A stretch of DNA of 64,000 nt. It comes from Nymphaea colorata. Its lineage: Eukaryota; Streptophyta; Magnoliopsida; Nymphaeales; Nymphaeaceae. Under the pieces are notes generated by a model that worked only from the letters and a program-made list of their open reading frames with translations, was not told where the DNA came from and searched no databases. Numbering within the stretch: the stretch's first letter is position 1; every line of letters begins with the position of its first letter. A program made the translations under genes and the position numbers. Shown piece by piece: positions 13,901 through 63,409 of this stretch. The stretch lies in contig NC_045143.1 in assembly GCF_008831285.2 (NCBI RefSeq), positions 4,537,503 through 4,601,502 on the forward strand, given 5' to 3'.

Positions 13901-14539
13901 CTAGAGGCGGTGGAAGTATCCCAAGTTGAGGACCGGTGGCTGGCCTGGAGCTGACAAGTCTTGGAACACTTCAATTTTGTATGTCTTCACCCTGTAGCTA
14001 TCAGAAACTTTAATGGTGAAGTGGTAGGTGAAATGCTCAGTGCCGCGATCCAGCATCTGTCCATACACCACCTTCAAGAGATTGAGAGAAGCATGGTTCT
14101 GGCTGTTGTATCTGTTCACAGCAAAGGAACACAGGTGCCAGGCGCGTCTATCGTTAGGAATGGTGATCCACTTGGGGTTTGGTTTAGGCCAGTAAGAGAT
14201 GGGCTTAAAGGAAGCTATGTTTAGCACTGGTGGCTCGTTCGGTGCCCCAAGATCCTGCAGGATCTCGCTAGAGTAATAGGCTGTGCGGGTTCCTTCTACC
14301 AGGTAAATGACGAGCTTGTAGGTATAGTGCTGGGTGCCACGGTCCAGCATCTCTGCATGCACCACCTTTATGAATTTGAGGTATGGGTTGTTCTGTTTTT
14401 GCACTGCATACTTACCCAAGCTCTGGATATGGCTGTCTTTTTCAACATTTGGGACGACGACCCAGTTGGTGGCTGCAGCCATGGCGGCCATGGAGGTGAG
14501 GACAACCAGAAGAAGAGGAAGGAATCGTACTCCACTCAT
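13901..14539 (-). CDS. Secreted two-domain cystatin-like protein, copy 1 (intact)
   Basis: The intronless frame encodes 212 residues. A signal peptide covers about 1-23 (R-F-L-P-L-L-L-V-V-L core, A-A-M-A-A-A before the cut), so the product should be secreted. Domain 1 (about 24-114) has the cystatin N-terminal Trp, the helix motif S-L-G-K-Y-A-V near residue 40, and the strand L-K-F-I-K-V-V. Domain 2 (about 120-212) repeats the same order with S-F-A-V and L-L-K-V-V. The cystatin QxVxG loop reads MLDRG in both domains and the usual C-terminal P-W is absent, so papain-type inhibition is uncertain. The start is set by GCAGCCATG, shared by the paralogs. This copy has N-D-R-R-A-W where others have N-D-G-R-A-W. 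A TATA box lies about 140 bp upstream. Confidence 0.85.
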   Translation of the reverse strand: MSGVRFLPLLLVVLTSMAAMAAATNWVVVPNVEKDSHIQSLGKYAVQKQNNPYLKFIKVVHAEMLDRGTQHYTYKLVIYLVEGTRTAYYSSEILQDLGAPNEPPVLNIASFKPISYWPKPNPKWITIPNDRRAWHLCSFAVNRYNSQNHASLNLLKVVYGQMLDRGTEHFTYHFTIKVSDSYRVKTYKIEVFQDLSAPGQPPVLNLGYFHRL

Positions 14540-14676
14540 GGCTGCTTAACAAATGGTAATGGATCTCTTCTCAAAAGGGAAAATAAAAGGCAAGCAAGCT
14601 AAGGAACTTATGCAGTAGAAGGAGAGGAAAGGATGGAGGAAAGATTGTGGTGTCAAATGCAAAGTTTTTGTCAGGT

Positions 14677-14684
14677 ATTTATAA
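14677..14684 (-). promoter_or_regulatory. TATA box of cystatin-like copy 1
   Basis: TATAAATA on the minus strand sits inside a block shared with the other subfamily I genes (ATTCAACCCCTCCCATC just upstream). It lies about 140 bp before the ATG, giving a leader of about 105-110 nt. Confidence 0.7.
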
Positions 14685-14800
14685 GATGGGAGGGGTTGAA
14701 CGGGTCTGACATGGATGAATGAATTAGTGTCCATTGATGTAACCTGTGTGCGCCAATTTGTGAATGAATTTGATCGGATGCGGATGTTTACATATTCAAT

Positions 14801-14853
14801 GCGTTGTTATAATTAACAAGATAACGCGTCGAGTGTATCCACCGCATGCTTCC
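14801..14853 (-). promoter_or_regulatory. Conserved upstream block with ACGCGT and GCATGC
   Basis: A block with AATTA, GATAACGCGT, GAGTGTA and CCACCGCATGC is found about 260-315 bp upstream of the start. It recurs at similar distances before copies at 24727 (about 24423-24470), 52857 (about 53111-53166) and 54106 (about 53801-53850). A shortened form lies before the broken copy starting at 47658. ACGCGT fits the CGCG box (VCGCGB) known to bind calmodulin-binding CAMTA factors, and GCATGC resembles an RY core. Conservation may also simply reflect recent duplication. Confidence 0.45.
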
Positions 14854-14859
14854 TGTTCC

Positions 14860-16900: not shown

Positions 16901-16966
16901 TGCCGCAGCAGCATTTATTCTTGAAACAAGTACATCTAAAATGGTAGGGGGGCAATGTTAGTTCAT

Positions 16967-17605
16967 CTAGAGGTGCTTGAAGTATCCCAAGTTGAGGACT
17001 GGAGGCTGGCCTGGTGCGGACAGGTCTTGGAACACTTCGATCTTGTATATCCTCACCTTGTAGCCTTCGGAAACCCTAATGGTGAAGTGGTAGGTGAAAT
17101 GCTCAGTGCCACGATCCAGCATCTGTCCATGCAACACCTTCAAGAGACTGAGAGAAGCATGCTTCTGGCTGTTGTACCTGTTCACAGCAAAAGAACACAA
17201 GTGCCAGGCACGTCCATCATTAGGGATGGTGATCCACTTGGAGTTTGGTTTAGGCCAGTGGGAGATGGGCTTGAAGTAGGCTATATTTAGCACTGGTGGC
17301 TCGTTTGGTGCCCCAAGATCCTGCAGGATCTCGCTGGCGTAGTATGCGGTGCGGGTTCCTTCTACCAAGTAAATGACGAGCTTGTAGGTATAGTGCTGGG
17401 TGCCACGGTCCAGCATCTCTGCATGCACCACCTTTATGAATTTGAGGTATGGGTTGTTTTGTTTTTTCACTGCATACCTACCCAAGCTCTGGACATGGCT
17501 GTCTTTTTCAACATTTGGAACGACAACCCAGTTGGTGGCTGCGGCCATGGCAGCCATTGAGGTCAAGACGACCAGAAGGAGAGGAAGGAAGCGTCCTCCA
17601 CCCAT
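16967..17605 (-). CDS. Secreted two-domain cystatin-like protein, copy 2 (intact)
   Basis: The frame encodes 212 residues and is intronless. Signal peptide 1-23; W26; L-G-R-Y-A-V at 41-46; L-x-F-x-K-V-V at 54-60; first loop M64-L-D-R-G68; domain 2 begins near W124, with S-F-A-V at 138-141 and second loop M162-L-D-R-G166. Each domain ends with a parallel segment (Q-D-L-G-A-P ... L-N-I-A-Y-F and Q-D-L-S-A-P ... L-N-L-G-Y-F), showing that the protein arose by internal duplication of one cystatin unit. C137 is the only cysteine. The gene is co-oriented with copy 1 about 2.4 kb away. Secretion and fold are well supported; the biological target is unknown. Confidence 0.85.
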   Translation of the reverse strand: MGGGRFLPLLLVVLTSMAAMAAATNWVVVPNVEKDSHVQSLGRYAVKKQNNPYLKFIKVVHAEMLDRGTQHYTYKLVIYLVEGTRTAYYASEILQDLGAPNEPPVLNIAYFKPISHWPKPNSKWITIPNDGRAWHLCSFAVNRYNSQKHASLSLLKVLHGQMLDRGTEHFTYHFTIRVSEGYKVRIYKIEVFQDLSAPGQPPVLNLGYFKHL

Positions 17606-17726
17606 GGGTGCTTAACAAATGGTAAAGGCTCTCTTGAATGAGAAAATAGAAGGCAAATGAAGGAATTTATGAAGCAGAGGGAGCTGAAAGGATGGATGTG
17701 GTGTGGCATACAAAGTTTTCGTCAGT

Positions 17727-17734: not shown

Positions 17735-17739
17735 GGAGG

Positions 17740-20372: not shown

Positions 20373-20963
20373 CTAGATGGCGCGGAAGTATCTCAAGTTG
20401 AGCACACGTGGCTGGCCTGGTGTGGACAGGTCCTGGAACACCTCAATCTTGTATATCTTCACCTCCAGCCAACGTTTTTTTTTTTATATTGAAAAAAATA
20501 ATATTTTTTAATTGCGTAATGTATTTTTTGTATTAAAATTCAGTTTGGCCCTACCCGTATCCAAAGGTCGGACTGCCGGCCCGCCCTTGAATAAAATCCT
20601 GGCTTCGCCTCTGCTCACAACAAAGGCACACAGGTCCCATGCGTGCTGCTCAGTTAGGATGGTGACCCAGTTTTGGTATGGAGTTGGGTCGGGGATGGGT
20701 TTGAAGGAGGCTATGTTGAGAACTGGTGGTTGGTTGGGTTCCCCAAGATAAGTGTAGTGCTGGTTGCCACGGTCCAGCACCTCTGCATGCACCACCTTTA
20801 TGAAGCTAAGGTATGGGTTGTTCTGTTTAGCCACAGCATAACTGCCCAAGCTTTGAACATGGCGGTCTCTCTCAACATTTGGGACGACCACCCAGTTGGT
20901 GGCTGTGACCATGGCTGCCTTTGAGGTAAGAAGCAGTAGAAGGAGAGGAAGAAAGCGCCCCAT
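20373..20963 (-). pseudogene. Cystatin-like pseudogene, copy 3 (subfamily II)
   Basis: The ATG at 20963 opens a normal signal peptide and the first half of domain 1 (V-E-R-D-R-H-V-Q-S-L-G-S-Y-A-V). Two lesions follow. About 60-70 bp is missing between H-Y-T-Y and the L-G-E-P-N-Q-P-P segment. In domain 2 about 125-150 bp is replaced by a foreign poly-A-tailed insert (20475-20613). Beyond the insert the family C-terminus is recognisable down to a TAG at 20373-20375. The product would be truncated with a foreign tail, so I call it a pseudogene. Its closest relatives here are the broken copies at 26944 and 49810. Confidence 0.85.
20475..20613 (-). mobile_element. Short poly-A-tailed retroposon (SINE-like) inside copy 3
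   Basis: Read on the minus strand, a 139-bp segment starts GCAGAGGCGAAGCCAGG and ends in a run of A (T run at 20475-20485 on the plus strand), directly replacing cystatin-like coding sequence. A conserved 5' end plus a poly-A 3' end points to a small non-LTR retroposon or the tail of a larger one. No clear target-site duplication remains, because the flank on one side was deleted. The family is not identified. Confidence 0.45.
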
Positions 20964-21537
20964 GGCTGTATGGGATGCTTTATAAGATGGGTACTAGGAT
21001 TAATGGAGAAAAGAAGAAGGAGTTTATGATGCAGAAGGAGAAAGGATAAATGCAATGGCGATGGTGTCCATGCAAGGATTTCAGCTGCTATTTATAATGC
21101 CGGATTTGGCGCTTTGCTTTACGGCAGCAATCTGCTCGCCTCACATATTTTGCTGTGTTCTACAAGTTGCAGTGTTGGCAACGAACGGGATATAATACAT
21201 TTATTTCAGAAAAACAAAAAACAATGCATGTGCTGTCCGGTTATATTTTCTTGTCCGCATTGTAATAAAGTATCACTTAATTTTTTTTTCTAAATCCAAC
21301 AACGAATCCTTATCCACGCCCATAGTCAAACTAAGCATATACATGAAAAAAAAGAGATTACGCTATTGCTCGTTGATCTTGACTTTCTGTTCGTCGCCTA
21401 TAGCTCCCCGTCCCTCTCAATTCTACATACTCCCGGTTTCAATTCAAAGGAGTCGACCTTTTCTTTTGTCCACCCTTTCGTTTGTCTGTGGGAGGAAGGA
21501 CTGGAAATTGGTGTTAAACGACGATTAGATAGCACAC

Positions 21538-24726: not shown

Positions 24727-25365
24727 ATGGGTGGAGGACGTTTCCTTCCTCTTCTTCTAGTCGTCCTGACCTCAATGGCCGCCATGGCTGCAGCCACCAA
24801 CTGGGTCGTCGTCCCAAATGTTGAACAAGACAGCCATGTCCAGAGCTTGGGTAGGTATGCAGTGGAAAAACAGAACAACCCATACCTCAAATTCATAAAG
24901 GTGGTGCATGCAGAGGTGCTGGACCGTGGCACCCAGCACTATACCTACAAGCTAGTCATTTGTTTGGTAGAAGGAACCCGCACCGCATATTACTCCAGCG
25001 AAATCCTACAAGACCTTGGAGCACCCAACCAGCCACCAGTGCTCAACATAGCCTCCTTCAAACCCATCTCCTACTGGCCTAAACCAAACCCCAAGTGGAT
25101 CACCATACCTAATGATGGACGCGCCTGGCACTTGTCTTCTTTTGCTGTGAACAGGTACAACAGCCAGAAGCATGCTTCTCTCAGTCTCTTGAAGGTGTTG
25201 CATGGACAGATGCTGGATCGCGGCACCGAGCATTTCACCTACCACTTCACCATTAGGGCTTCCGAAGGCTACAAGGTGAGGATATACAAGATTGAAGTGT
25301 TCCAAGACCTGTCTGCACCAGGCCAGCCACCAGTCCTCAACTTGGGATACTTCGAGCGGTTCTAG
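24727..25365 (+). CDS. Secreted two-domain cystatin-like protein, copy 4 (intact)
   Basis: The frame encodes 212 residues. An in-frame extension upstream to 24538 exists, but it crosses the TATA box at 24589 and leader, so the ATG in GCAGCCATGGGT at 24727 is the start. Signal peptide about 1-23; L-G-R-Y-A-V in domain 1; first loop V-L-D-R-G; second loop M-L-D-R-G. Position 137, Cys in copies 1, 2 and others, is Ser here (L-S-S-F-A-V), while a Cys appears in the strand V-I-C-L-V-E-G. The gene is convergent with pseudogene copy 5 (26944-27442), and this pair is mirrored at 49810-52857. A poly-A signal AATAAA is at 25412-25417. Confidence 0.85.
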   Translation: MGGGRFLPLLLVVLTSMAAMAAATNWVVVPNVEQDSHVQSLGRYAVEKQNNPYLKFIKVVHAEVLDRGTQHYTYKLVICLVEGTRTAYYSSEILQDLGAPNQPPVLNIASFKPISYWPKPNPKWITIPNDGRAWHLSSFAVNRYNSQKHASLSLLKVLHGQMLDRGTEHFTYHFTIRASEGYKVRIYKIEVFQDLSAPGQPPVLNLGYFERF

Positions 25366-26943: not shown

Positions 26944-27442
26944 CTAGAGGGCTTGGAAGTATCCCAAGTTGAGCACCGGTGGCTGGCCAGGTGCGGACAG
27001 GTCTTGGAACACCTCAATCTTGTATGTCTTCACAGCATAGTTGTCCAGAACTTTAATGGTGAAGTGGTACGTGAAATGCTGAGTGTCCCGATCCAGCACC
27101 TGTGCGCTCAACACCCTCAAGAGCCTAAGTGAAGCATGGTTCTGTTGGTTGTACCTCTTCACAGCAAAGGCACACAGGTTCCAGGCTTGCTGGTCAGTTG
27201 GGATGGTTGGGTGCCCCAATTGGGTGCTCCACAAATAGCTGCCCTCTACAAGGCAAATGACTAATTTGTATGTATAGTGCTGGGTGCCTCGTCCAGCACC
27301 TCTGCATGAACCACCTTTATGAATTTGAGGTCTGAACCTGGCTGTCTCTCCCAACATTTGGGACGACCACCCAGTTGGTGGCTGCAGCCTTGGCTGCCAT
27401 TGAGGTCAGAACGAGCAGAAGGACAGGAAGAAAGCGCCCCAT
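26944..27442 (-). pseudogene. Cystatin-like pseudogene, copy 5 (subfamily II)
   Basis: The ATG at 27442 (CCACCATGGGGCGC) begins a normal signal peptide and A-T-N-W-V-V-V-P-N-V. The part with L-G-x-Y-A-V is deleted, so the text jumps to L-K-F-I-K. One G is missing in the D-R-G codons (GACGAGGCACC), shifting the frame, and the end of domain 1 (Y-Y through the N-W of domain 2) is deleted. Domain 2 from Q-A-W-N-L to L-G-Y-F-Q-A-L remains open to the TAG at 26944. Three independent lesions make a functional product unlikely. A TATAAATA lies near 27,560 on the minus strand. Confidence 0.85.
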
Positions 27443-27599
27443 GGTGGTATGATATGCTTATAAGTGGGGTATTAGGATTAAAGGAGGAAAGATAACGGAG
27501 TTTAGATGCAGAAGGAGAAAAGATGAATGTCGATGGTGTCCCTGCAAGGATTTCAGCCACTATTTATAGTGAGGGGTTTGCTCCTTTACTTTACGGGAT

Positions 27600-30671: not shown

Positions 30672-31200
30672 TTTCTAATAATATCATTCCCACCTAAAAA
30701 GGAGCCAGGAAGGCAATGAAAAGAAATAAACTAGTGAAAGAATCATACAAAGGACAAGATATGGTGGGCATCGCAACAGACATTAGGATGACCTGGATGT
30801 CTGTAAAAGTGAGCTTTCACGGATGTCCAATTTTTCAGGCATCCGTGAGTCTGTCCTTTTTTGTAGTGTTTATGATTAAAGCAGCATTACAAATAAACCA
30901 CCTAAGTAGCTAGCTATATTAGTAATTGTGACTTTTACATTGCCACTAGGTTGGAGGGGTTGGTGCAATGGCCAGATTAGAAGCTGGTAGGCAATCAAAT
31001 CCAGTTTCAAATTTTCAAAGCATCAACTTTAAGTGGTGCAAAAAGAGAGCCAGTGATGTTCAAGTAGAAGCACTAGGAGCAGCACCTTGACCAAAAGTCG
31101 GGCTTTCATTTTAAGAGGATGAGGGGTTGAGGGATGTTTCAGCCCCAGAGATATGACGAAATACTATCTGGCTCACTCAAAAAGAAAAGCCAAATGTCAC
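29331..31200. other. Intergenic DNA with dispersed module and GA microsatellite
   Basis: It contains copy b of the dispersed AT-rich module (about 29,860-30,240) and a (GA)n tract at 30,639-30,671. No gene is supported. Confidence 0.45.
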
Positions 31201-31214
31201 ATATATAATAGCTG

Positions 31215-31351
31215 GGTATACCTACCCAAAGCTCTGGACATGGTTTGTCTTTCTCAACATTTGGAACGACAACCCAGTTGGTGGCTGCGGCTATGGCTGC
31301 CATTGAGGTCAGGACAACCAGCAGCAGAGGAAGGAATCACCCTCTACCCAT
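31215..31351 (-). pseudogene. Cystatin-like fragment, copy 6 (signal peptide and start of domain 1)
   Basis: The ATG at 31351 in GCAGCCATGGGT is followed by the family signal peptide and T-N-W-V-V-V-P-N-V-E, then similarity stops after the S-L-G region. The rest of the gene is missing. The TATA position reads TATTTACA (on the plus strand), so the promoter has decayed too. By position it corresponds, in the inverted duplicate, to the intact copy at 62771. Confidence 0.75.
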
Positions 31352-31454: not shown

Positions 31455-31540
31455 AATATACTTCATGTGTTCGGCCCTCACAACTGACTACGTTATTCCG
31501 TCGGGGGCATTTTAATATTTGTAGAAAGTTATTTACCACG
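31455..31540 (-). repeat. Segment shared with 61,130-61,215 at a duplication junction
   Basis: The stretch with AATAACTTTCTACAAATATT, GTAGTCA, TTGTGAGG and GAAGTATATTC (minus strand) matches 61,130-61,215 on the plus strand. It lies next to the truncation of subfamily II copies at both places, so it marks either the inserted DNA that cut them or the common deletion product that was later duplicated. Confidence 0.55.
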
Positions 31541-31807
31541 CGTTTGAGGCATAGTATCGGGTATAGCTGCCTTCTACCAGGCAAATGATGAGCTTGTAGG
31601 TGTAGTGTTGGGTGCCACGGTTCAGCACCTCTGCATGAACCAGCTTTATGAATTTGAGGTATGGGTTGTCCTGTTTAGCCACGACATACCCACCCAAGCC
31701 CTGAACATGGCTCTTTCTATCAACGTTTGGGATGACCACCCAGTTGGTGGTTGCGGGCATGGCTGCCATTGAGGTAAGAAGCAGTAAACGAGAGGAAGAA
31801 AGCGCAT
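31533..31807 (-). pseudogene. Cystatin-like pseudogene, copy 7 (subfamily II, truncated)
   Basis: The ATG at 31807 starts the signal peptide, but one base is missing in the leucine run, shifting the frame. Downstream the correct frame reads T-N-W-V-V-I-P-N-V-D ... G-G-Y-V-V-A-K-Q ... V-L-N-R-G-T-Q and ends at the segment shared with 61,130-61,215. Domain 2 is absent. Its inverted partner at 60870 is cut even earlier. Confidence 0.8.
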
Positions 31808-31999
31808 CGTGGCAGCATGGGGATGCTTATAAGTTGGGTATTGTGATTAATGGAGGCACGACGATGGAGTTTATGATGCAAAAGGATAAAGGATGAATGG
31901 CGATGGTGTACATGCATGGATATTAGCCACTATTTGTAGTGCGGGATTTTATGCTTTGTCTTCCGTGAAGAATCTCCTCGCCTCACATATTTTGTTGTG

Positions 32000-38831: not shown

Positions 38832-39179
38832 TCTCTCCCACTCCATCAACTGACCCACATTGACAAGTCGTTCTAATGGAGCAAGCGGCATGATTACCCA
38901 TCAACATTAATGATACTACAACGGGATTGAAAATAAAAAGGAGATAGAAAATAAAAGTAACCAATCAAAAATTCAACTCAGTAGGGATAATTATAACAGG
39001 TCGGGTAACTAATACACCAATAGTACTGCATGCGGACCACACATTTATTCAAAGGAGGCATTACAACCATTGCACTGTATATGTGGAATTACATTCAGTT
39101 ATTACATTTTAAGTTCATGCCGCAGCATTTATTCTTGAAACAAGTACATATAAAACTGTTTGAATCAATAGTAATTAAT

Positions 39180-39665: not shown

Positions 39666-39822
39666 GGCTGCTGGCTGCTTTAACAAATGGTAATGGTAGT
39701 GGCTCACTTCTCTAGTGAGAAAATAAAAGGCAAACGAAGGAACTTCTGAAGCAAAAGGAGCCGAAGAGAAGGAGGATTAATGTTGGTAGCGTCGAATGCA
39801 AAGTTATGATCAGGTATTTATA

Positions 39823-41749
39823 GGATGGGAGGGTTGAATGGGTCGGAAATGGATGTCTATAAAATATTAAAGTCCGTAGATACCGTGTGCTCTAAGTTGT
39901 ATGTAGTTGATGATGTAAGGCGGTCATATACATATCTTCAAAGGGACTCTTGATGAAGGAAGCGTGTTGATCTCTAAAGCTGTCATGTGATTTCCTGACT
40001 CCTTCTCTCTCCCTCGTGATGAGTTCTGAACCATAATTTAGTACTGTTCCATGTGCTGCTGAAGTCCACAAAATGGGAACGATGATAGAAAGTAGTGGCG
40101 GCTGACGGGCTGAGAGCCATCCTCTCACAAATTCTATTGACAGATACAGCTTCTTGGTGGATGGGAATTCTACCGTTTGCAGTTGAGTTGACAACTTTAC
40201 GGTCCGCCTCTTTGAAGCTCATCTCTTTGCCTTGGGAAGAATAAAATTTTTTCAGTAAATATGAATAAGTCAATGTTAGATATTATACATAGTAAGCCAA
40301 AATCAATAGATTGGCATGGTTTTAGAAAATGAAAAATAACATGATTTTTTATATCTTGTCACCGAGATTTGCATCTTTTATTGATTTTCTTGAATATTTT
40401 GTGGAACTTAATAACCTCATTTCTAAATGTTTTTGAATATTTTCTTGTGAAAAACTAATGTTGTTGTTACTTTTAATTTAATCTTGCTACGAATTAGCTT
40501 AGTGTGGCTCATTAACGTAATTTAAACTATATATACAAGAAAGTGCATGGCCAGGAAGGAATATTTCTATATTCATTGTCAAAAATATAGTAATAAGGGA
40601 TACAAGACTAAAAATGTTGTTTTGATTGTTAGCTTCGGTTTTTTTTGTTTTTGTGCTGTTATCTTCAGCATGTCATATAAAGGACGTGGACACATAGAGT
40701 GGGAGAGAGAGCTTAATTCTAATTACATTACACACACTTAACAAAGACTTAGATTGGAAGCAAAGAAAAGAAGTATACAAATATACAGATGTCAACGGAT
40801 GGATACAAATTGGATTCACTATTAAGCACTTCTGCTTTTTGTTGATGTTCACATATTCAAATTCGAATACAGATTTAAATGTGAATGAAGGAAAGTCATA
40901 TCCTAATTTGAAATCGAAACTTGATTTCACAATCTGAATCTGACTCGAATATGATATTTGAATTCATACGTGAATCCAGATGCAGATTTTAAACGGAATA
41001 TGGCTGACTATAAAAAATAAGGGCATTGGACATAGAAATTTAATTTGAAATTAAATTTGACTGGCACCAGACTGGATATTTATGTATATCTGAATTAAAA
41101 TCCAGTCGGATGTTGTTTCTCAAATCTGAACATGACCTGACTTCTTAATCTTTTTTTTTTTTTGTCATACCCGACTTTTTATGAAAGATCCAGTCAAGTA
41201 TGTGATCCAAACTGGATATATTGATATCCTACATGAATCTTATTTTATTAAAGACACGACATAATGAGCACTATCATCGAAATGACATAAGGCATGGATT
41301 AAAAATCTTTTTTTCTCCCAATCTATTTGACCAATGAGAAAGGCTTGTTTTCAAGGGCTTCATAGGACAAATACCACAAAGCAACATAACCAGATTACTG
41401 CTCCCAGAAACGAGTTCGTTTCACAGAAAATTAACCTTGTTTCAAATATAATAAGTAGCTTCGTTACCCATCAACATCGAATTTACAACGGGAGAATGTA
41501 AAAACAAAGAAAGAATAAATAAATAAACGATTAATAAGGCAGTATGCACAATTACCACGAGAAAAACGTAGGGTATTCTCCACTTTCACATAAATCCAAG
41601 TGCACGCAGCACACTTATTCTGAGAAGCCATCACAACTATTGCACCGTATATGTGCAATTACATTCACTTATGACATTTTAAGTTTATGCCGCAGTATTT
41701 GTTCTTGAAACAAATACATATAAAACTGTTTGAGGCAATAGGAATTAAT
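39823..41749. other. Intergenic DNA between copies 8 and 9
   Basis: No gene. It contains the upstream flank duplicated at 56,390-56,700, copy c of the AT-rich module (about 40,270-40,690), and an AATCCGAATATG-type repeat (about 40,795-41,225). All have inverted partners at 54.8-56.7 kb. Confidence 0.55.
40795..41225. repeat. AATCCGAATATG-type AT-rich dispersed repeat, copy 2
   Basis: It shares the same motif vocabulary as 13,080-13,430 and is the inverted partner of 55,255-55,680. Confidence 0.55.
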
Positions 41750-42059
41750 CTAGAGGGCTTGGAAGTATCGAATTTGAGGACTGGTGGCCGGCCAGGTGCC
41801 GACAAGTCTTGGAAAACTTCGATCATGTATGTCTTCTTTATGTAATATTGGTCGGAAACTCTAATGGTGAAGTGGTAGGTGAAATGTTCAGTGCCACGAT
41901 CCACCATCTGCCCAAACACCACCTTCGAGAGCTGAGAGAAGCATGGTTCTGGCTGTTGTACCTCTTCACACTAAAGGAACATAAGTTCCAGGCACGGACG
42001 GTGATCCAGTTGGGCTAAGGCCAGTAGGAGGTAGGGTTGAAGGAGGCTATGTTGAGCAC
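41750..42059 (-). pseudogene. Cystatin-like pseudogene, copy 9, 3' part (domain 2)
   Basis: Domain 2 is recognisable (Q-M-V-D-R-G-T-E-H-F-T-Y loop region, I-E-V-F-Q-D-L-S-A-P-G), but one base is lost near the C-terminus (TATCGAATTTGAGG where paralogs have TATCCCAAGTTGAGG), so the frame misses the family TAG at 41750-41752. Towards its 5' side it runs to GTTGAGCAC at 42059, where a copia LTR remnant begins. The matching 5' part lies at 47576-47658, on the far side of the element. Confidence 0.8.
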
Positions 42060-44127: not shown

Positions 44128-45525
44128 ATGAGAAAAAATAATGTTTGGATTATTGACTCCGGAGCAACCAATCACATGACTAGTGAACCATCTACTCTTA
44201 GTGAACTAATCAAAGATTATAGACAGCCTGTTTTCACTGCTGATGGTTCTTCTATAAATGTCGAAGGTGCTAGTACTATGACGTTCTTTGGAAATCAGAA
44301 ATCTAAAGTTCTTCTTATTCCTAAACTAACAGCAAATTTGATTTCTGTTAGTAAGATTACTCAAGCTTATAATTGTTTGACAATTTTTTCTTCCAAGGAC
44401 CTGACATTTGAGGAACTGAACTCGAAGAAAGTGATTGGTAAAGGACATCTCCAAAGAGGACTATATGTTCTAAATGATGACTGTGTTAGTCTCCTCACCA
44501 ACAGTCGACGAAACTCTGAGTACCCGATATGGCACGCTAGATTGGGGCACATTTCAGACCGAAGTATCAAACAACTTATTTCTCACCTTACTACAGAAGA
44601 TTGAGCATGCAATGCTTGTGAGTTTTCCAAGTTTACAACACTTCCATTTCAATCGTCTGGAGAAAAATCTGTAGAAGTCTTTGATCCCGTTCACTCTGAT
44701 GTATGGGGACCCGCTCCTGAAATATCTCATACCAGATATAGATATTATGTCTCCTTTATCGATGATATGACTCATGTAACCTGGATTTATTTTCTCAAAA
44801 ATAGAAGTGAGGTGCCAAAAATATTTGAAGAATTCTATAATCTTATTCATACTCAGTATGGAATCAAGATAAATAAACTTCGCTCTTACAATGGTGGGGA
44901 GTATGTTAACGATATTCTTAAAGAGTTTATGCGAATGAAATGCATACAAACACAATATTCTTGTGTCGGAACTCGTCAACAAAGTGGCGTCACAGAGAGG
45001 AAAAATCGCCAACTCTTAAACATCACCCACATTCTCATGATACATATGAATGTGCCACAAAAATATTGGAATGAAGTCATTGGAACCGTGTGCTATATAT
45101 CTAACCGGATTCCTAATTCTAGCATTGATGACAAGGTACCTCTTGAACTTCTCCTCAAACGGCCAATCTCCATCAAGCATCTCAAGGTGTTTGGGTGCAA
45201 GTGTTGCATCCATGTGCAGGAAAAGTTTGGAAACAAATTTCAGAAACGTGCCATCAAATGCATTTTCATGGGATATTCAAGCAAAAAACATGGCTACCGC
45301 TCCCTTGATCCTACTACTAACAAGATGATGGTCTCAAGAGATGTAAAATTCTATGAGGCTGAAAATTGTTTTGAAAATACTCAACAAGAAGAGTGCCCTT
45401 CTCAGCTCTCCGTGCAAAACAACGACACTCATCGTCCCTTGATTGACGCCTTCAACCAAATCCTTCACCGAAAAGATGATGAAGTTAACCAGCCATCTTC
45501 CAATCAAGAAGTGACTGATGAATGA
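44128..45525 (+). pseudogene. Copia pol, protease-integrase part
   Basis: Protease active site D-S-G-A-T-N-H at the start; the pre-integrase histidine motif W-H-A-R-L-G-H near 44,530; integrase core with H-S-D-V-W-G, Y-N-G-G-E-Y and G-V-T-E-R-K-N. A TGA at 44602-44604 interrupts the same frame inside the integrase zinc region, and the frame closes at TGA 45523. Confidence 0.8.
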
Positions 45526-47253
45526 GAAATTCAAGCCAGTGATGTTTCTAATATTCCTTAAGTTAGACATTTCTCAAGACAATGCAGGCCACCAGTTAGG
45601 TTAAGTGATTACTATACATACATATCCACTAACAACATTCACTCTATTGAAAAATATTTGTCCTTTGATGGAATGTCTGAATCTTATAAATCTTATGTTT
45701 ATGCAACTTACAAGCTTCAAGAGCCAAAAAAATTTTAGGAGGCAAGTAAACATGAAAAATGGAGAGATGCCATGAAAGAGGAACTTAGAGATATTGAGAA
45801 AAATCATACTTGGGATTTGTCCCTTGTCCCGAAGGAAAGGAACTTGTCGGATGCAAATGGATTTACAAAATCAAATTCAAAAGTAATGGAGAAATTGAGC
45901 GGTACAAATTCCGACTTGTTGCTAAGGGATTCACTCAGACTGAAGGGATTGATTATACAAAAACTTTGGCTCCAGTTGCAAAAATGAATACGATAAGTGC
46001 TCTTCTTATTGTCGCTTCTATAAAGAGATGGAGTCTTTTTCAGTTTGACGTTAAAAACGTCTTCCTTCATGGCAAATTAAGAGAAGAGGTATTCATGGAA
46101 GTCCCACAAGGTGTCATAAGTAAACCGGGTCACGTGTGTAAACTCAAGAAAGCCTTGTATGGTCTCAAACAATCGCCCCACACGTGGTTTTCTCATCTTA
46201 GTGAAGCTCTCAACAAGTATGACTTCAAACAAAGCACTGCAGATTATACTATGTTTATAGCCACTCGAGGAGACAAGGTGAGTATACTACTTGTATATGT
46301 TGATGATATTATACTTACCGGGAATGATGTCGAGAACATACATATGATAAAGAAGTATCTCAACAAAGAATTTGAGATCAAAGATCTCAGAACTCTTCGA
46401 TACTTTCTTGGCATTGAGGTTGCTCAATCTGACAAAGATGTTTTTATCTGCCAACGAAAATATATTATTGATCTCCTCAAGGAAACCAAATATTTAGGAT
46501 CGAAGGCTGCAGAGACGCCTCTTGAGACAAATTGCAAGATGAAAAAAGAAGAAGGCAGCATTGTAAAAAAACATAGAGAGTTTTCAAAAACTTGTCGGCA
46601 AACTTATATATTTGACAGTTACTCGACCAGATATCACATATGCAGTCAGCTTAATCGGCCAATTTATGCATAATCTAAGGTCTAGTCATATCGAAGCAGC
46701 ACATAGAATACTGCGGTACTTGAAAGGGAGTCCAGGCAAAGGTATCTTAATGAAACCAAGCCAATCCCTTGTTGTGTCTGGGTACTGCGATGCTGATTGT
46801 GCTGGAGACCCCAACGATAGAAGATCTACATCGGGTTATTGTACATTTATTGGAGAAAATCTTGTGACATGGAAGAGCAAGAAGCAAACTGTTGTAGCTC
46901 GATCAAGTGCAGAAGCCAAATATAGATCTATGGCCGTATGTACGTGTGAACTAATATGGATCAAAGCGTTACTCAAGGATATATATTTGGATATTAGGGA
47001 ACCAAAGGAACTAAAGTGCGATAATATGGTAGCTATTCACATTGGATCAAATCTCGTGTTTCACGAGCGGACCAAGGACATTGAAGTCGACTGTCAATTT
47101 GTACATGAAAAGATTCAGGATCACATTGTACGAACCTCACACGTCAGGAGTGAGATTCAGCTGGATGATGTATTCACCAAGAGCCTTGGAAAAGAAAAGC
47201 ATAAAACTCTGATTAACAAGTTGGGGCAGATAGACATCTGCCTACCAACTTGA
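45526..47253 (+). pseudogene. Copia pol, reverse transcriptase-RNase H part
   Basis: The reverse transcriptase is seen from G-C-K-W-I-Y-K-I-K, with L-K-K-A-L-Y-G-L-K-Q and the catalytic Y-V-D-D. RNase H follows with G-Y-C-D-A-D-C-A-G-D and S-S-A-E-A-K-Y. There are stops before about 45,740, a frame shift near 45,810 and another near 46,600, so no continuous polyprotein exists. Confidence 0.8.
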
Positions 47254-47565: not shown

Positions 47566-47575
47566 TGTTTTTAAT

Positions 47576-47658
47576 ACGACCCAGTTGGTGGCTGCGGCCA
47601 TGGCTGCCATTGAGGTCAGGACGACCAGAAGTAGAGGAAGGAATCGTCTTCTACCCAT
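47576..47658 (-). pseudogene. Cystatin-like pseudogene, copy 9, 5' part (signal peptide)
   Basis: The ATG at 47658 in GCAGCCATGGGT is followed by the family signal peptide up to the T-N-W codons, where copia sequence begins. Nearly all of domain 1 (about 250 bp) is missing between this part and 42059, so a deletion accompanied or followed the insertion. TATAAATA lies at 47791-47798 on the minus strand. Confidence 0.8.
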
Positions 47659-47799
47659 GGCTGCTTAACAAATGGTAATGGCTCTCTTCTGGAAGCGTAA
47701 AACAAAAGGCAAGCTAAAGATCTTAGGAAGCAGAAGGAGCTTAAAGGATCGATGAATGGTTGTGATGTGGAATGCAAAGTTTTGTTCAGGTATTTATAG

Positions 47800-49700: not shown

Positions 49701-49809
49701 CCTTGCATGGACACCATCAACATTCATCCTTTCTCCTTGTGCATCATAAACCACATCGTCTTTCCTCAATTAATCACAATACCCAACTTACAAGCATCCA
49801 CATACTGCC

Positions 49810-50455
49810 ATGGGGCGCTTTTTTCCTCTCCTTCTACTCGTGCTGACCTCAATGGCAGCCATGGCCGCAGCCGCCAACTGGGTGGTCGTCCCAAAAGTTG
49901 AGAGGGACAGCCATGTTCAAAGCTTGGGTGGATATGCCGTGGCTAAACAAAACAATCCATACCTCAAATTCATAAAGGTAGTTCATGCAGGGGTGTTGGA
50001 CAGCGGCACCCAGCACTATACCTACAAATTAGTCATTTGCTTTGTAGAGGGCAGCTATACCAGAGGGCAGCTATACCAGGTACTACTTCAGTGAAATCCT
50101 GCAGGACCTTGGGGCACCCAACCAGCCACCGGTTTTCAACATAGCTTCCTTCAAACCCATCCCCGATCCTACTCCTTACCAAAACTGGGTCACCATCCCA
50201 ACTGACCAGCACGCCTGAGACCTGTGTGCCTTTGCTGTGAAGAGGTATAACCAACAGAACCATGCTTCACTTAGGCTCTTGAGCGTGTTGAGCACACAGG
50301 TGCTGGATCGCGACACTCAGCATTTCACCTACCACTTCACTATTCAGGTTCTGGACAACTATGCTGTGAAGACATACAAGATTGAGGTGTTCCAAGACCT
50401 GTCCGCACCTGGCCAGCCACCGGTGCGCAACTTGGGATACTTCCAAGCCTTCTAG
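49810..50455 (+). pseudogene. Cystatin-like pseudogene, copy 10 (subfamily II)
   Basis: Nearly full length, with the start in GCCATGGGGCGC and the family stop TAG at 50453-50455. A 16-bp tandem duplication (AGAGGGCAGCTATACC twice, about 50,045-50,077) shifts the frame after domain 1, and the Trp of domain 2's A-W motif is TGA (CACGCCTGAGACC, about 50,217). Otherwise both domains are well kept, including V-L-D-S-G and V-L-D-R-D loops. The loop glycine is Asp in domain 2, as in copy 5. The TATA position is degraded (ACAAAT). Recently dead by these signs. Confidence 0.85.
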
Positions 50456-52218: not shown

Positions 52219-52857
52219 CTAGAGGCGATTGAAGTATCCCAAATTGAGGACTGCTGGCTGGCCTGGTGCGGACAGGTCTTGGAACACTTCGATCTTGTAT
52301 GTTTCCACCTTGTAGCCGTCGGAAACCTGAATGGTGAAATGGTAGGTGAAATGCTCAGTGCCGCGATCCAGCATTTGTCCATACACCACCTTCAAGAGCC
52401 TGAGAGAAGCATGGTTCTGGCTGTTGTATCTCTTCACAGCAAAGGAACACAAGTTCCAGGCACGTCCATCGTTAGGGATGGTGATCCAGTTAGGGTTTGG
52501 TTTAGGCCAGTAGGAGGTAGGGTTGAAGGAAGCTATGTTGAGCACCGGTGGCTGGTTGGGTGCCCCAAGGTCCTGCAGGATTTCGCTGGAGTAATATGTA
52601 GTGCGGGTTCCTTCTACAAGGCAAATGACCAGCTTGTAGGTATAGTGCTCAGTGCCACGGTCCAACATCTCTGCATACACAACCTTTATGAATTTGAGGT
52701 ATGGGTTGTTCTGTTTTTCCACTGCATACCTACCCAAGCTCTGGACATGGCTGTCTTGTTCAACATTTGGGACGACGACCCAGTTGGTGGCTGCAGCCAT
52801 GGCGGCCATTGAGGTCAGGACGACTAGAAGAAGAGGAAGGAAACGTCCTCCACCCAT
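52219..52857 (-). CDS. Secreted two-domain cystatin-like protein, copy 11 (intact)
   Basis: The frame encodes 212 residues from the ATG at 52857. The in-frame extension to 53085 runs through the TATA box and is not coding. Signal peptide about 1-23; L-G-R-Y-A-V; loops M-L-D-R-G in both domains; two cysteines (79 in the V-I-C-L strand and 137 in L-C-S-F). Near the end it has G-Q-P-A-V where all other copies have G-Q-P-P-V. It is head-to-head with copy 12 (1,248 bp between the ATGs) inside a large palindrome. The first about 155 residues are almost identical between the two, then they diverge. Confidence 0.85.
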   Translation of the reverse strand: MGGGRFLPLLLVVLTSMAAMAAATNWVVVPNVEQDSHVQSLGRYAVEKQNNPYLKFIKVVYAEMLDRGTEHYTYKLVICLVEGTRTTYYSSEILQDLGAPNQPPVLNIASFNPTSYWPKPNPNWITIPNDGRAWNLCSFAVKRYNSQNHASLRLLKVVYGQMLDRGTEHFTYHFTIQVSDGYKVETYKIEVFQDLSAPGQPAVLNLGYFNRL

Positions 52858-54105: not shown

Positions 54106-54747
54106 ATGGGTGGAGGACGTTTCCTTCCTCTTTTTCTAGTCGTCCTGACCTCAATGGCCGCCATGGCTGCAGCCACCAACTGGGTCGTCGTCCCAAATGT
54201 TGAACAAGACAGCCATGTCCAGAGCTTGGGTAGGTATGCAGTGGAAAAACAGAACAACCCATACCTCAAATTCATAAAGGTTGTGTATGCAGAGATGTTG
54301 GACCGTGGCACTGAGCACTATACCTACAAGCTGGTCATTTGCCTTGTAGAAGGAACCCGCACTACATATTACTCCAGCGAAATCCTGCAGGACCTTGGGG
54401 CACCCAACCAGCCACCGGTGCTCAACATAGCTTCCTTCAACCCTACCTCCTACTGGCCTAAACCAAACCCTAACTGGATCACCATCCCTAACGATGGACG
54501 TGCCTGGAACTTGTGTTCCTTTGCTGTGAAGAGGTACAACAGCCAGAACCATGCTTCTCTCAGGCTCTCGAAGGTGGTGTTTGGACAGATGCTGGATCGT
54601 GGCACTGAGCATTTCACATACCACTTCACCGTTAGGGTTTCCGATCGATATTACATGGAAAAGACATACAAGATCGAAGTGTTCCAAGACTTGTCGGCAC
54701 CTGGCCAGCCACCAGTCCTCAACTTGGGATACTTCCAAGCCCTCTAG
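54106..54747 (+). CDS. Secreted two-domain cystatin-like protein, copy 12 (intact)
   Basis: The frame encodes 213 residues, one more than most copies because of an insertion in domain 2 (D-R-Y-Y-M-E-K-T-Y where copy 11 has D-G-Y-K-V-E-T-Y). The ATG at 54106 follows GCAGCC; the longer frame from 53878 includes promoter. Loops are M-L-D-R-G in both domains, with Cys at 79 and 137. The N-terminal two thirds equals copy 11 except for one Leu-to-Phe change in the signal peptide, while the C-terminal third resembles copies 56911 and 62771. This mosaic suggests gene conversion between palindrome arms. AATAAA at 54794-54799. Confidence 0.85.
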   Translation: MGGGRFLPLFLVVLTSMAAMAAATNWVVVPNVEQDSHVQSLGRYAVEKQNNPYLKFIKVVYAEMLDRGTEHYTYKLVICLVEGTRTTYYSSEILQDLGAPNQPPVLNIASFNPTSYWPKPNPNWITIPNDGRAWNLCSFAVKRYNSQNHASLRLSKVVFGQMLDRGTEHFTYHFTVRVSDRYYMEKTYKIEVFQDLSAPGQPPVLNLGYFQAL

Positions 54748-56910: not shown

Positions 56911-57549
56911 ATGGGTCGACGCTTCCTTCCTGTGCTTCTCGTCGTCCTGACCTCAATGGCAGCCATGGCTGCAGCCACAAACTGGGTCGTTGTTCCAAAT
57001 GTTGAGAAAGACAGCCATGTTCAAAGCTTGGGCAAGTATGTTGTAGACACACAGAACAACCCGTACCTCAAATTCATAAAGGTGGTGTATGCAGAGGTGT
57101 TGAACCGTGGCACTGAGCACTATACCTACAAGCTGGTCATTTGCCTGGTAGAAGGAACCCGCACTGCATATTACTCCAGCGAAATCCTGCAGGACCTTGG
57201 GGCACCCAACCAGCCACCAGTGCTCAACATAGCCTCCTTCAACCCTACCTCCTACTCGCCTAAGCCAAACCCCAACTGGATCACCATCCCTAACGATGGA
57301 CGTGCCTGGAACTTGTGTTCCTTTGCTGTGAAGAGGTACAACAGCCAGAACCACGCTTCTCTCAGGATCTCGAAGGTGGTGTTTGGGCAGATGCTGGATC
57401 GTGGCACTGAGCATTTCACCTACCACTTCACCGTTAAAGTTTTCGACCGATATTACATAGAGAAGACATACAAGATCGAAGTGTTCCAAGACTTGTCGGC
57501 ACCTGGCCAGCCACCAGTCCTCAACTTGGGATACTTCCAAGCCCTCTAA
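56911..57549 (+). CDS. Secreted two-domain cystatin-like protein, copy 13 (intact)
   Basis: The frame encodes 212 residues beginning M-G-R-R-F-L-P. Signal peptide about 1-22, then T-N-W-V-V-V-P. Changes specific to this copy are K-Y-V-V-D-T-Q in the helix (Ala to Val) and V-L-N-R-G in the first loop, where all other intact copies keep Asp; the second loop is M-L-D-R-G. The inverted duplicate of this gene is pseudogene copy 8. The stop is TAA, where the relatives use TAG. AATAAA at 57596-57601. Confidence 0.85.
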   Translation: MGRRFLPVLLVVLTSMAAMAAATNWVVVPNVEKDSHVQSLGKYVVDTQNNPYLKFIKVVYAEVLNRGTEHYTYKLVICLVEGTRTAYYSSEILQDLGAPNQPPVLNIASFNPTSYSPKPNPNWITIPNDGRAWNLCSFAVKRYNSQNHASLRISKVVFGQMLDRGTEHFTYHFTVKVFDRYYIEKTYKIEVFQDLSAPGQPPVLNLGYFQAL

Positions 57550-59895: not shown

Positions 59896-60869
59896 TTAAT
59901 CTTGAGAAAGAAAATATACAAAGTACGTCTCATAAAATTATAAAAAAAAGTAGATTGCTTAAATGGGTATACACGTGAGTGATAAGCCGATTGCGGTCAG
60001 CCACGTTAGTAAATGAACTATTGAGCTTTACAAATAAAATCAGCAAGCGGCACGCGAGACTGGATATTTCAACAGTCTCAGGCCCTACCTGATCGATTTG
60101 ATGCATACATGTCGGCTTCTACTTGAATTGATTAATATAATTATGAAGATTTTTTTTAGCAATATCAAAAGTAGGTACGATATGCTGCACAATATTATAA
60201 GATATAAACACTTTCTAGCTACCCTTTACTTTCTGGTTTCCTAAACCTGACTTTATGGTTCTACACTGGAACTCATACCGACCATGAAGCTGCCTAACTT
60301 GTTTTATATATCTTGACCAGGAAAACCGCTCTCCAGCATAAATAGATTGCTTGACGCCATATTCCGTTCTTTCCTTCCTCTTCTAGGTAGAGGTAGAGGA
60401 AAATGTCTGACTTTTTGAACTGAACTTGGTAGTATGTAGAATGAGAGGGCGGAGGGGCTACAGATGATGATCAGAAAGTCAAAATCAAAGAGTAATATGC
60501 TTAGCTCTACTATGGGTGTGGAAGAGGATTCGTTTCTGAATTTGAATAAAAAATTCAAGTGATACTTTATTATAATGCAGACAAGATAATATATCCGAAC
60601 AGCCCATGCATTGTTTTTTTTCTTTCTTTTGAGTTAAATATTATATCCCGTTCATTGCCAACTCTGCAACTTGTAGAGGACAGCAAAATATGTGAGGCGA
60701 GCAGATTCTTCACGGAAAGCAAAGCATAAAATCCCGCACTACAAATAGTGGCCAATATCCATGCATGTACACCATCGCCATTCATATCCCTTCTCCTTCT
60801 GCATCATAAACTCCATCGTCTTTCCTCCATTAATCACAATACCCAACTTATAAGCATCCCCATACCGCC

Positions 60870-60937
60870 ATGGGGCTCTTTCTTCCTATCCTTCAGCTCG
60901 TTCTTACCTCAATGGCAGCCATGGCCGCAGTCACCAT
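60870..60937 (+). pseudogene. Cystatin-like fragment, copy 14 (subfamily II, signal peptide only)
   Basis: The ATG at 60870 (CGCCATGGGGCTC) begins the signal peptide with L-V-L-T-S-M-A-A-M-A-A, then family similarity stops and unrelated sequence follows. The TATA position reads ACAAATAG. The upstream 1.3 kb is the usual subfamily II flank, so the gene was truncated after duplication of the unit. Confidence 0.75.
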
Positions 60938-62600
60938 GTATACCATATTGCTAACATTACTACATAAATATGTTTAATCCTAACCCAGCTTAATTTAGTT
61001 ACACCATACGAATTTTAGCCATTCAAAGCGTTTTGAGAAAAACCATTCAGACGAATGAAGTGACTAAAACGCCTCAAACACAAGAAAAAAAAAGTGAAAT
61101 AACTAAAGGCATGGTACCTAAGGATGAAAACTAAGGTGAAAAATAACTTTCTACAAATATTAAAATGTCCCAACGTAGTCACTTGTGAGGATCGAACAAA
61201 TGAAGTATATTCAAACCTTGAACACTCCACCACCTTTCATGGAAAAAAGATCTAAACTTGACTTATTCATATTTGTTGAAAATTTCATTATTGTTTGGGT
61301 AAAGAAATGAGTTTTAAGAAGCCTAACATAATTGGTTAGACTAACAGATTAATAGAAGTTTGGTCATCAGTTTGATACTTATAGGTGTTACTTCTCTATA
61401 CTATAAACGATGGTTATGTGATGTTTAATTGATAGGTGTTCCACCTTCCACCCAAACCTCTTTCTAAACTTTTTTGATGAGGAAAACGGGAAGAAACTAC
61501 GGCTTTCCTAAGGTATTCTCTCCAGCAAGTAGATGAGGTTTCTAAGAGTTGACCATTAAGCTTGTCAACTAAACAAAAAAGGGCGGAATTCCCCACCACC
61601 AAGAAGCTATACAATTTACTGCCAACAGAATTTGAGAGAGATGCTTCTAAGCAACCACTACTTTTTATCATTGTCAGCGCCACTTGGAAAGTTATCTTGT
61701 GGACTGCAACAACACAAGGCTAAATTATGGCTCGGAACTCATGAAGTAGGAGAGAAAGGGGAGCAAGTTCTATATGCCACTTCATGTATATAATGAGCAT
61801 ATGCTGGATGTGGACCTTAATATCAATATATATATTTACTTTGATACTTAAACATTAAATATGCATGTGCCTGATATAACAAATATGTATAAAATAACTA
61901 ATAAGAATGAGATAATGTTTATGAGATAACAAAAGATTTACAAGATAACAAGATAAGAACATATATATAAAATAACTCCAAATGTAAGTATGATATAATG
62001 TTTGTTAGATAACAAATGATTTACGTGATAACGAGATAGCAGACAAATATATGAGATAACGTTAAACATAAGTATGAGACAATGTGTATGAGTTAATAAA
62101 ATAATTATGAGTTAATTAGATAAGTGACAGATGTATAAGATAACGCTAAGCATAAGTATGAGATAACGTTTATGAGATATTAAAATAATTATGAGATATT
62201 AAAATATTTATAAGATAATGAGATAAATCTATGAGTAAGACAAAAAAAATGAAAATGTTTTTTACTGCTTAAATGAGTATGTTGGTTCATTATGTATATA
62301 AAAACTGATCAATTTTACTTTTATCGAATTCTCAATTTTTTTGGTTTCTTTTTTGTCCCTACAAAAAATTTATTTTTGTATTCAATATGAGCATTTTTTA
62401 TTATTATTAAAATGATGTATGTAATTTCATACACGAGTTCAAAGTGTGAGAACAACAAATCAAAAGAGGAGGCTACAATCAACACGCTTCCTTCACGAAG
62501 AGTCCCCTTGAATATATGTACATGACTGCCGTACATGGTTAACTACTTAGAACTTAGAGCACACAGTATCTACAGACTTTAAATATTATAGATATCCATT
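60938..62600. other. Intergenic DNA between copies 14 and 15
   Basis: The piece at 61,130-61,215 matches 31,455-31,540. Next comes flank similar to copy 13's distal promoter (about 61,540-61,740), then a degenerate ATGAGATAA repeat (61,860-62,250). No gene supported. Confidence 0.5.
61860..62250 (+). repeat. Degenerate ATGAGATAA / AAGATAAC repeat
   Basis: Variants of TATGAGATAACGTTxA and ATAATTATGAGATAT recur about every 20-45 bp for nearly 400 bp. It is an AT-rich minisatellite-like tract about 0.5 kb upstream of copy 15 and is absent from its relatives' promoters. Confidence 0.6.
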
Positions 62601-62626
62601 TCAGACCAATGCAACCCCTCCCATCC

Positions 62627-62634
62627 TACAAATA
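62627..62634 (+). promoter_or_regulatory. Altered TATA box of copy 15
   Basis: The conserved position reads TACAAATA instead of TATAAATA, 144 bp before the ATG. A C at the third position usually weakens TATA-binding protein contact. Confidence 0.5.
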
Positions 62635-62770
62635 CCCGATCAAAACTTTGCATTCCACACCACACAGTCATCCCTCCATCCTTTCGGCTCCTAGTTTTGC
62701 TTCATAATTTCCTTAGCTTGCCTTCTATTTCCCCTTCAAGAAGAGAGCCAGTACCATTTGTTAAGCAGCC

Positions 62771-63409
62771 ATGGGTCGACGCTTCCTTCCTCTGCTTTTG
62801 GTTGTCCTGACCTCAATGGCAGCCATGGCTGCAGCCACCAACTGGGTTGTCGTCCCAAATGTTGAGAGTGACGGCCACGTCCAGAGCTTGGGTAGGTATG
62901 CAGTGGCTAAACAGAATAACCCATACCTCAAATTCATAAAGGTGGTGCACGCAGAGGTGCTCGACCGTGGCACCCAGCACTACACCTTCAAGCTCATCAT
63001 TTACCTTGTGGAAGGACGCAGCAACACATATTACTCCAGCGAAATCCTGCAGGACCTTGGGGTACACAACCAGCCACCAGTGCTCAACATAGCCTCCTTC
63101 AACCCTACCTCATACTGGCCTCAACCAAGCCTCAACTGGATCACCATCCCTAACGATGGACGTGCCCGGAGCTTGTGTTTCTTTGCTGTGAAGAGGTACA
63201 ACAGCCAGAACCATGCTTCTCTCAGGCTCTCGGAGGTGGTGTTTGGGCAGATGCTAGATCGTGGCACTGAGCATTTCACCTACCACTTCACCATTAGGGT
63301 TTTGGACCGATATTACATGGAGAAGACATACAAGATCGAAGTGTTCCAAGACCTGTCGGCACCAGGCCAGCCACCAGTCCTCAACTTGGGATACTTCCAA
63401 GCCCTCTAG
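62771..63409 (+). CDS. Secreted two-domain cystatin-like protein, copy 15 (intact)
   Basis: The frame encodes 212 residues beginning M-G-R-R-F-L-P. Signal peptide about 1-22. First loop V-L-D-R-G, second M-L-D-R-G. It is the most diverged intact copy: R-S-N-T-Y-Y in domain 1, G-V-H-N-Q for the usual G-A-P-N-Q, and the domain 2 Trp of R-A-W is Arg (R-A-R-S-L). The 3' flank lacks the AATAAA found in its relatives: the text jumps from TGTTTC to GCTGCGGC. With the altered TATA box, expression may be weak. It may be on the way to becoming a pseudogene. Confidence 0.8.
   Translation: MGRRFLPLLLVVLTSMAAMAAATNWVVVPNVESDGHVQSLGRYAVAKQNNPYLKFIKVVHAEVLDRGTQHYTFKLIIYLVEGRSNTYYSSEILQDLGVHNQPPVLNIASFNPTSYWPQPSLNWITIPNDGRARSLCFFAVKRYNSQNHASLRLSEVVFGQMLDRGTEHFTYHFTIRVLDRYYMEKTYKIEVFQDLSAPGQPPVLNLGYFQAL

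Follow-up and report, generated by a model that had tools for sequence, protein, structure and literature searches.

Cystatins are normally blockers of papain-like enzymes, and a gene cluster in the water lily Nymphaea colorata raises the question of what a cystatin does once the surface that grips papain is gone. The cluster lies in a window of 64,000 nucleotides on contig 6 (4,537,503-4,601,502), the whole stretch of DNA that was analysed, and its features are given below in window positions. Six-frame reading finds seven intact open reading frames (ORFs) of 212-213 codons and nine broken pieces, distributed over the two strands from 13.9 to 63.4 kb. These are 16 places with family sequence, or 15 if two neighbours at 31 kb (31142-31336 and 31536-31826) are one copy, in agreement with the fifteen copies, seven of them intact, counted in an earlier sequence-only reading of the locus. 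That reading also described the products as secreted double-cystatin proteins, and all seven intact genes do encode two full-length family domains behind a start that, judged by eye, resembles a signal peptide (a short Arg-bearing segment, a hydrophobic stretch and an Ala-rich end). The genes are apparently intronless, on the basis of their open frames. On the sequence and model evidence presented here, these genes probably encode secreted, two-headed phytocystatin-fold proteins in which papain inhibition has been lost and a different, conserved binding edge has been kept by selection.

The models indicate that the family domains have the cystatin fold, a helix packed on a curved antiparallel sheet. 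One window domain (from 16967-17605), modelled with AlphaFold2 using 67 family rows as the alignment, has a predicted local distance difference test (pLDDT) score of 96.8. Its best solved structural match is potato multicystatin, with a Z score of 15.5 and a root mean square deviation (rmsd) of 1.3 over 84 residues; tarocystatin, taken from its papain complex, gives Z 14.5 and rmsd 1.4 over 81, engineered Affimers are also among the best matches, and monellin reaches a Z of about 14, as other cystatins do. The whole double protein (16967-17605) models as two cystatin domains (pLDDT 90.4), with a predicted template modelling (pTM) score of 0.53, so the relative orientation of the domains is not interpreted. 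At the sequence level, a profile of the 67 family domains matches 13 domains of a canonical set from the same genome with a probability of 99.1, an expectation value (E) of 1E-18 and 24% identity. In a Pfam scan that covered four of the seven intact window proteins, the SQAPI (squash aspartic proteinase inhibitor) model lies above its cut-off of 31 in all four (33-41 bits) and the Cystatin model in one; SQAPI also matches 64 of the 67 family domains at E <=0.01. As a control, canonical QVVAG cystatins of N. colorata reach 90 bits with the SQAPI model, and since that model scores canonical cystatins higher, the label is best taken to mean phytocystatin fold and not aspartic-protease inhibitor. 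Both the models and the profile matches thus bear out the cystatin-like domains that the sequence-only reading had proposed.

The relationship to phytocystatins (MEROPS I25, types I-III, including potato multicystatin) is also visible in the common helix core (LGxFAV) and strand motifs, and the homology is recognisable. The complete helix motif, [LVI][AGT][RKE][FY][AS][VI]x[EDQV][HYFQ]N, is present in none of the 67 family domains and in 8 of the 13 canonical domains, whereas its first six positions are found in 41 of 67 and 9 of 13, respectively. Like type III multicystatins, the double proteins have tandem domains, but theirs are without the papain motifs; the legumain motif of type II phytocystatins, SNS[LI], is absent from all 16 of the family's double proteins. 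The idea that the family descends from the C-terminal, legumain-type domain found in type II cystatins was considered and rejected, as the solved two-domain plant cystatin 2mzv is matched by the profile at 27.0 bits in its first domain and at 9.8 bits in its second.

Three motifs define the inhibitory phytocystatins: an N-terminal Gly, QxVxG and [A/P]-W (PMC12458679). QxVxG does not occur at loop 1 in any of the 67 family domains, the four matches to the pattern sitting elsewhere in the domain, and no family domain has a Trp at loop 2, where the sequence-only reading had already noted the loss of the P-W (11 matches to [AP]W fall at residues 1 or 11). In the canonical set, by contrast, QxVxG is found in 12 and [AP]W in 11 of the 13 domains. 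None of the 14 window domains has a Gly just before the N-terminal Trp (Asn in 11, Lys in three); across the family, 17 of the 67 domains as trimmed begin with Gly. Strings reading QVVEG and QVVDG in one sequence (L008) were ruled out as true QxVxG on account of their place in strand 2, which comes before the LDRG hairpin.

The edge that the family does have is made up of a conserved N-terminal Trp, a loop 1 that is mostly (V/M)LDRGTxHYTY and a loop 2 that is mostly DLSAPGxPPVxNxGYF. Loop 1 carries LDRG in 60 of the 67 domains, LERA in three, and MDRG, LNRG, FDRG and LERG in one each. The earlier reading had noted (M/V)LDRG or close variants at the QxVxG position of both domains; of the 14 domains in the intact window genes, 13 have LDRG there and one, the first domain of 56911-57549, has LNRG. 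In the alignment with canonical cystatins, loop 1 of the family is also two residues longer, a feature that the earlier reading had not included, and loop 2 is about four residues longer. In the AlphaFold2 model the hairpin turns around Gly44-His47, and Leu41, Asp42 and Arg43 belong to the strand that precedes the turn. By our own gapless count from strand 2, L-D-R-G-T faces Q-V-V-A-G, and the aligner puts the gap elsewhere; as the placement of the two-residue gap is ambiguous, single-residue equivalences in loop 1 are uncertain by up to two positions.

Among 22 diverse representatives, 20 positions are kept in at least 20 sequences. Twelve of these are not common to canonical cystatins. The two loops account for nine of them (P 0.001), and the remainder are Trp2 at the N-terminus, Glu68 in strand 4 and Gln25 at the helix end. 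Arg43 and His47 are invariant, and Asp42, Thr49, Glu68, Asp72 and Asn83 are present in 20 or 21 of the 22. This concentration of family-specific residues in both loops and at the N-terminal Trp shows that the papain edge has been replaced, not merely mutated in one loop: the three parts that grip papain (N-terminal strand, hairpin loop 1 and hairpin loop 2) have all been exchanged for a different, conserved edge. The family thus combines a known fold with a replaced functional edge.

The two-loop edge is the best-kept part of the family domain: across 22 representatives that are less than 80% identical, column entropy averages 0.80 bits within the loops and 1.73 bits outside them (P 3.5E-6). 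A codon model for 12 intact chromosome-6 genes gives a ratio of nonsynonymous to synonymous substitution rates (dN/dS) of 0.236 overall, of 0.088 in the loops (56 codons) and of 0.324 elsewhere (131 codons); fixing the loops at 0.324 costs 37.2 in twice the log-likelihood difference (2dlnL). LDRG is kept in 60 of the 67 intact domains and at only 8 of 23 loop-1 sites in broken copies (P 8E-7, to be taken only as a guide, since the sites are related by descent). These figures come from 107 loop-1 sites, the 67 aligned domains and 40 others, of which 23 were taken by hand as broken copies and 17 were left out. The 23 include L061, which has no clear signal start and keeps LDRG. The 17 are seven chance or canonical-like sites (L003, L019, L074, L076, L093 and window 28448 and 29665), three intact identical or near-identical duplicates of aligned rows (L023, L033 and L037) and seven members of the LERA clade (L057, L058, L063 and L065-L068). 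A stricter recount, in which two likely shared losses were merged, one unclear site was dropped and the LERA clade was removed from the intact set, gives 8 of 21 broken sites against 60 of 64 intact ones. As judged from the coding sequences, selection keeps the replacement edge in the window's chromosome-6 cluster, and for that cluster the earlier suggestion that the replacement was selected, not decayed, holds.

Several observations limit how far this can be extended. The loop/rest ratio of dN/dS was also obtained by counting in five groups, with 95% intervals from a column bootstrap, and it is clearly below 1 only in domain 2 of the chromosome-6 genes (0.26, 0.13-0.51). Domain 1 of the same genes, taken alone, just misses significance (0.45, 0.16-1.08), the intervals for the chromosome-3 ARF group (0.36, 0.09-1.39) and the chromosome-8 group (0.79, 0.29-2.06) include 1, and the chromosome-3 His-rich group goes in the opposite direction with a wide interval (2.24, 0.66-11.1), because of a loop 2 with a dN/dS of about 1.1, higher than in the other groups. 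Taken as a whole, the window's cluster therefore shows clear loop constraint, but this does not extend evenly across the family. In addition, the 67 domains include close relatives, so counts over them are not independent; loop conservation could partly serve folding; and the proposed secretion leans on signal peptides that were assigned by eye.

How might such proteins work? The two-domain proteins would be secreted, and papain-like enzymes would no longer be inhibited, as a longer, charged hairpin and the lack of a loop-2 Trp make entry into the papain cleft unlikely. That the edge is conserved, on a two-headed scaffold that is probably secreted, points to a partner outside the cell that is conserved as well, and the replacement edge may bind it at two sites, one on each domain. 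This partner would most likely be another secreted protein. A protease of some non-papain class is the leading single guess, and a tentative one, since SQAPI provides a known plant precedent. In the window's cluster, the constraint on the two loops speaks against their being engaged in a fast arms race. A stronger version of the proposal, read from the conserved residues and regarded as quite possible though short of even, is that the entire inhibitory edge has become a conserved polar recognition or active site (Trp2, Asp42, Arg43, His47, Thr49, Glu68, Asp72 and Asn83) for a target unrelated to papain-like proteases; the family would then be a natural counterpart of the Affimers in an early-diverging flowering plant, with two-domain forms of at least two origins.

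Other explanations have to be weighed against this one. With nine of the 16 places in the window broken, the genes could be decaying or neutral leftovers of a tandem expansion, but such a reading is very improbable and is already contradicted by the selection tests: the overall dN/dS of the chromosome-6 genes is well under 1, and LDRG is often damaged in broken copies and mostly kept in intact ones. The promoter is likewise retained, with a TATAAA element upstream of 10 of the 12 close chromosome-6 copies and TACAAA upstream of the other two. The proteins might instead still inhibit papain-like proteases, their divergent edge fitting into one particular cysteine protease or another; their fold is that of papain-binding cystatins, and their edge is constrained in the window's cluster, as that of working inhibitors would be. 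This appears improbable in view of the 67 domains that have neither QxVxG at loop 1 nor a Trp at loop 2, the charged Asp-Arg pair in the hairpin and the greater length of both loops.

Inhibition of pepsin-like enzymes by a recruited phytocystatin scaffold, as in SQAPI, is a special case of the favoured explanation, so that the odds of the two overlap. SQAPI is the best Pfam family for every window protein scanned, and in plants it is the known precedent for redirecting a cystatin to a different class of protease (PMC2784779). This particular version is nonetheless rather doubtful: besides the lack of specificity of the profile noted above, the solved SQAPI chain (2kxg) matches the family at only 17.1 bits (E 0.04), with plant cystatin entries listed above it at 23-59 bits, and SQAPI has been reported as specific to the Cucurbitales (PMC4189545). 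Membership in SQAPI on the strength of the Pfam name was accordingly dropped, given the higher scores of canonical cystatins and the weak match to 2kxg. Finally, the conserved polar edge could be a binding or active site for a small molecule, a glycan or a receptor, with no inhibition of proteases of any class. The invariant Arg43 and His47 and the near-invariant polar residues around them would suit such a site, and the non-inhibitor monellin is close in structure. This is unlikely, if less so than a SQAPI-like role: above the Pfam cut-offs the four window proteins scanned match only SQAPI and Cystatin, and there is no enzyme or lectin among the best 60 of the 75 matching solved chains. Loss of papain inhibition with retention of a new conserved edge is thus the reading preferred here.

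Affimers and Adhirons are engineered phytocystatin scaffolds in which the same two loops are replaced to make a new binder, and they account for many of the family's best structural and sequence matches. They differ in being man-made, with varied loops, whereas the N. colorata family is natural and has conserved loops in dozens of genes; it offers a natural comparison for the engineered molecules. SQAPI (MEROPS I55, PDB 2kxg) likewise has a phytocystatin-derived fold and sets a precedent for a changed target, but the family is less similar to it in sequence than to ordinary plant cystatins. Monellin has the cystatin fold without protease-inhibitor activity (PMC12458679); its best sequence match to the family, at E 0.07, falls short of significance, and it differs in its single domain and its role as the sweet protein of one fruit. 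Monellin and SQAPI are two well-known plant cases in which a cystatin has lost its ancestral activity and gained another (PMC2784779), and they show that the scaffold lends itself to reuse, be it against a different class of protease or for a wholly unrelated purpose. The cystatin-like domain of phloem filament protein PP1 (PF07430) has weak profile similarity to the family (17 of 67 domains at E <=0.01). Identity with PP1 was rejected, as its model falls below the Pfam cut-off in the window proteins scanned; a genome search also gave no match, though absence is not thereby shown.

Searches of open-licence papers on cystatins, SQAPI and water lily brought up no published account of an LDRG-type family. 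The one match for N. colorata together with cystatin, PMC11756074, is a peptide-hormone review, and the word "cystatin" does not appear in the part of its text that was examined. If the interpretation is correct, the family would be a further plant case of a re-purposed cystatin, a larger one of at least 58 intact genes, in water lily. Its conserved edge would make the new target findable by pull-down, and dozens of genes would be misdescribed by an automatic label such as Cystatin or SQAPI.

These 58 or more genes are the intact ones with a complete family domain genome-wide, 16 double and 42 single, and single-domain relatives form larger arrays elsewhere than the cluster from which the earlier reading started. 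The searches used three family members and two Pfam models as queries, so the counts are lower bounds, with small further pieces outside them, and some identical copies among the 58 may be assembly duplicates. Four of 62 full-length ORFs were not counted as intact family genes: L069 is canonical, window 26947 is broken, and L061 and L063 have no clear signal start; L053, with a shortened start, was counted. The 67-domain alignment omits seven intact singles that are identical or nearly identical to included ones (L023, L033, L037, L057, L058, L065 and L066). Outside the chromosome-6 cluster, a single-domain array lies on contig 3 at 1.01-1.32 Mb, a derived KLERAPGH form at 7.78-7.84 and 12.40 Mb on the same contig, related genes on contig 8 at 4.13, 6.72-6.79 and 23.33-23.36 Mb, and a related double gene on contig 6 at 3.06 Mb. 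The contig numbers agree with published chromosome numbers for all three N. colorata marker primers tried (chromosomes 9, 13 and 12; PMC9601493), each of which occurs a single time, on contig 9, 13 and 12, respectively. Canonical cystatins of N. colorata number about fifteen: the 12 noted above, one copy that scores the same as an included one, and the intron-split L081 and L084. Published surveys give 5 to 26 cystatins per angiosperm (PMC4189545) and 55 in wheat (PMC8508539).

A tree built from 80 domains splits the family's 67 from the 13 others (support 100/100). For the doubles of the chromosome-6 cluster, the first domains make up one group (99/93) and the second domains another (100/79). 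For the chromosome-8 doubles, first and second domains share a single group with chromosome-8 singles (100/100). This pattern suggests that the two-domain form arose at least twice, unless conversion has homogenised the domains within a gene. The tree is limited by few columns for the number of rows, open forks and the meeting of long branches, and the 3.06 Mb double gene is not clearly placed.

The whole chromosome-6 cluster spans about 125 kb and exceeds the window, running up to 4.676 Mb; the part beyond the window holds a further five intact copies that are close and, at 4.645 Mb, a double gene that is more distant. Three of the seven intact window genes are on the reverse strand: 13901-14539 (212 aa, signal peptide by eye, two LDRG domains), 16967-17605 (212 aa, the target of both structure predictions) and 52219-52857 (212 aa). 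The forward-strand genes are 24727-25365 (212 aa), 54106-54747 (213 aa), 56911-57549 (212 aa, the LNRG gene mentioned above) and 62771-63409 (212 aa). For 24727-25365, 52219-52857 and 54106-54747 the length is counted from the signal-peptide Met, and the frame stays open further upstream.

The broken copies are mostly on the reverse strand, beginning with 20376-20993, where domain 1 with LDRG is then interrupted, and 26947-27457, which has LDRD at loop 1 of domain 2. The neighbours at 31 kb, also reverse, are a signal and N-terminal piece (31142-31336) and an N-terminal half with LNRG at loop 1 (31536-31826). Further reverse-strand remains are 39098-39679, with pieces in two frames and LERG in domain 2, the domain-2 pieces at 41668-42014, with VDRG, and a signal-peptide piece at 47566-47664. 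On the forward strand are 49774-50452, with LDSG in domain 1 and LDRD in domain 2, and a signal-peptide piece at 60834-60974. Inside the cluster, at 44128-47253 (forward), are pieces of a Ty1-copia-type retroelement, recognised by eye from integrase-like and reverse-transcriptase/RNase H-like ORFs, and the cluster is flanked by a kelch-repeat ORF at 8496-9428 (forward; Pfam Kelch_1, E 8.5E-27).

Some members elsewhere in the genome have features of their own. Ten of the contig-3 singles at 1.01-1.32 Mb (L039-L041, L043, L044, L046-L048, L051 and L053) have a His/Asp/Glu-rich stretch (PDHDEHHDVHEVEHP and similar) between the signal peptide and the domain, a composition suggestive of metal binding. 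The derived clade at 7.78-7.84 and 12.40 Mb on contig 3 (L056-L058, L060 and L063-L068) has the loop KLERAPGHYSY (or HDSY) and His-rich linkers; in several of its copies the last 90 residues are identical, which indicates recent duplication or assembly redundancy. Three pairs at 1.03-1.05 Mb on contig 3 (L022/L023, L032/L033 and L035/L037) are also identical over the last 90 residues, each pair about 15.73 kb apart; either a recent segmental duplication or a repeat in the assembly would account for this. Finally, contigs 7 and 8 (L086, L087 and L089) and contig 1 (L092) carry other secreted cystatin-like ORFs, divergent ones that lack both QxVxG and LDRG. The loop of L086 reads WATRAVGMTSYRF; L089 is close to L086, and L087 (WSMKLLRATHHQF) is more distant.

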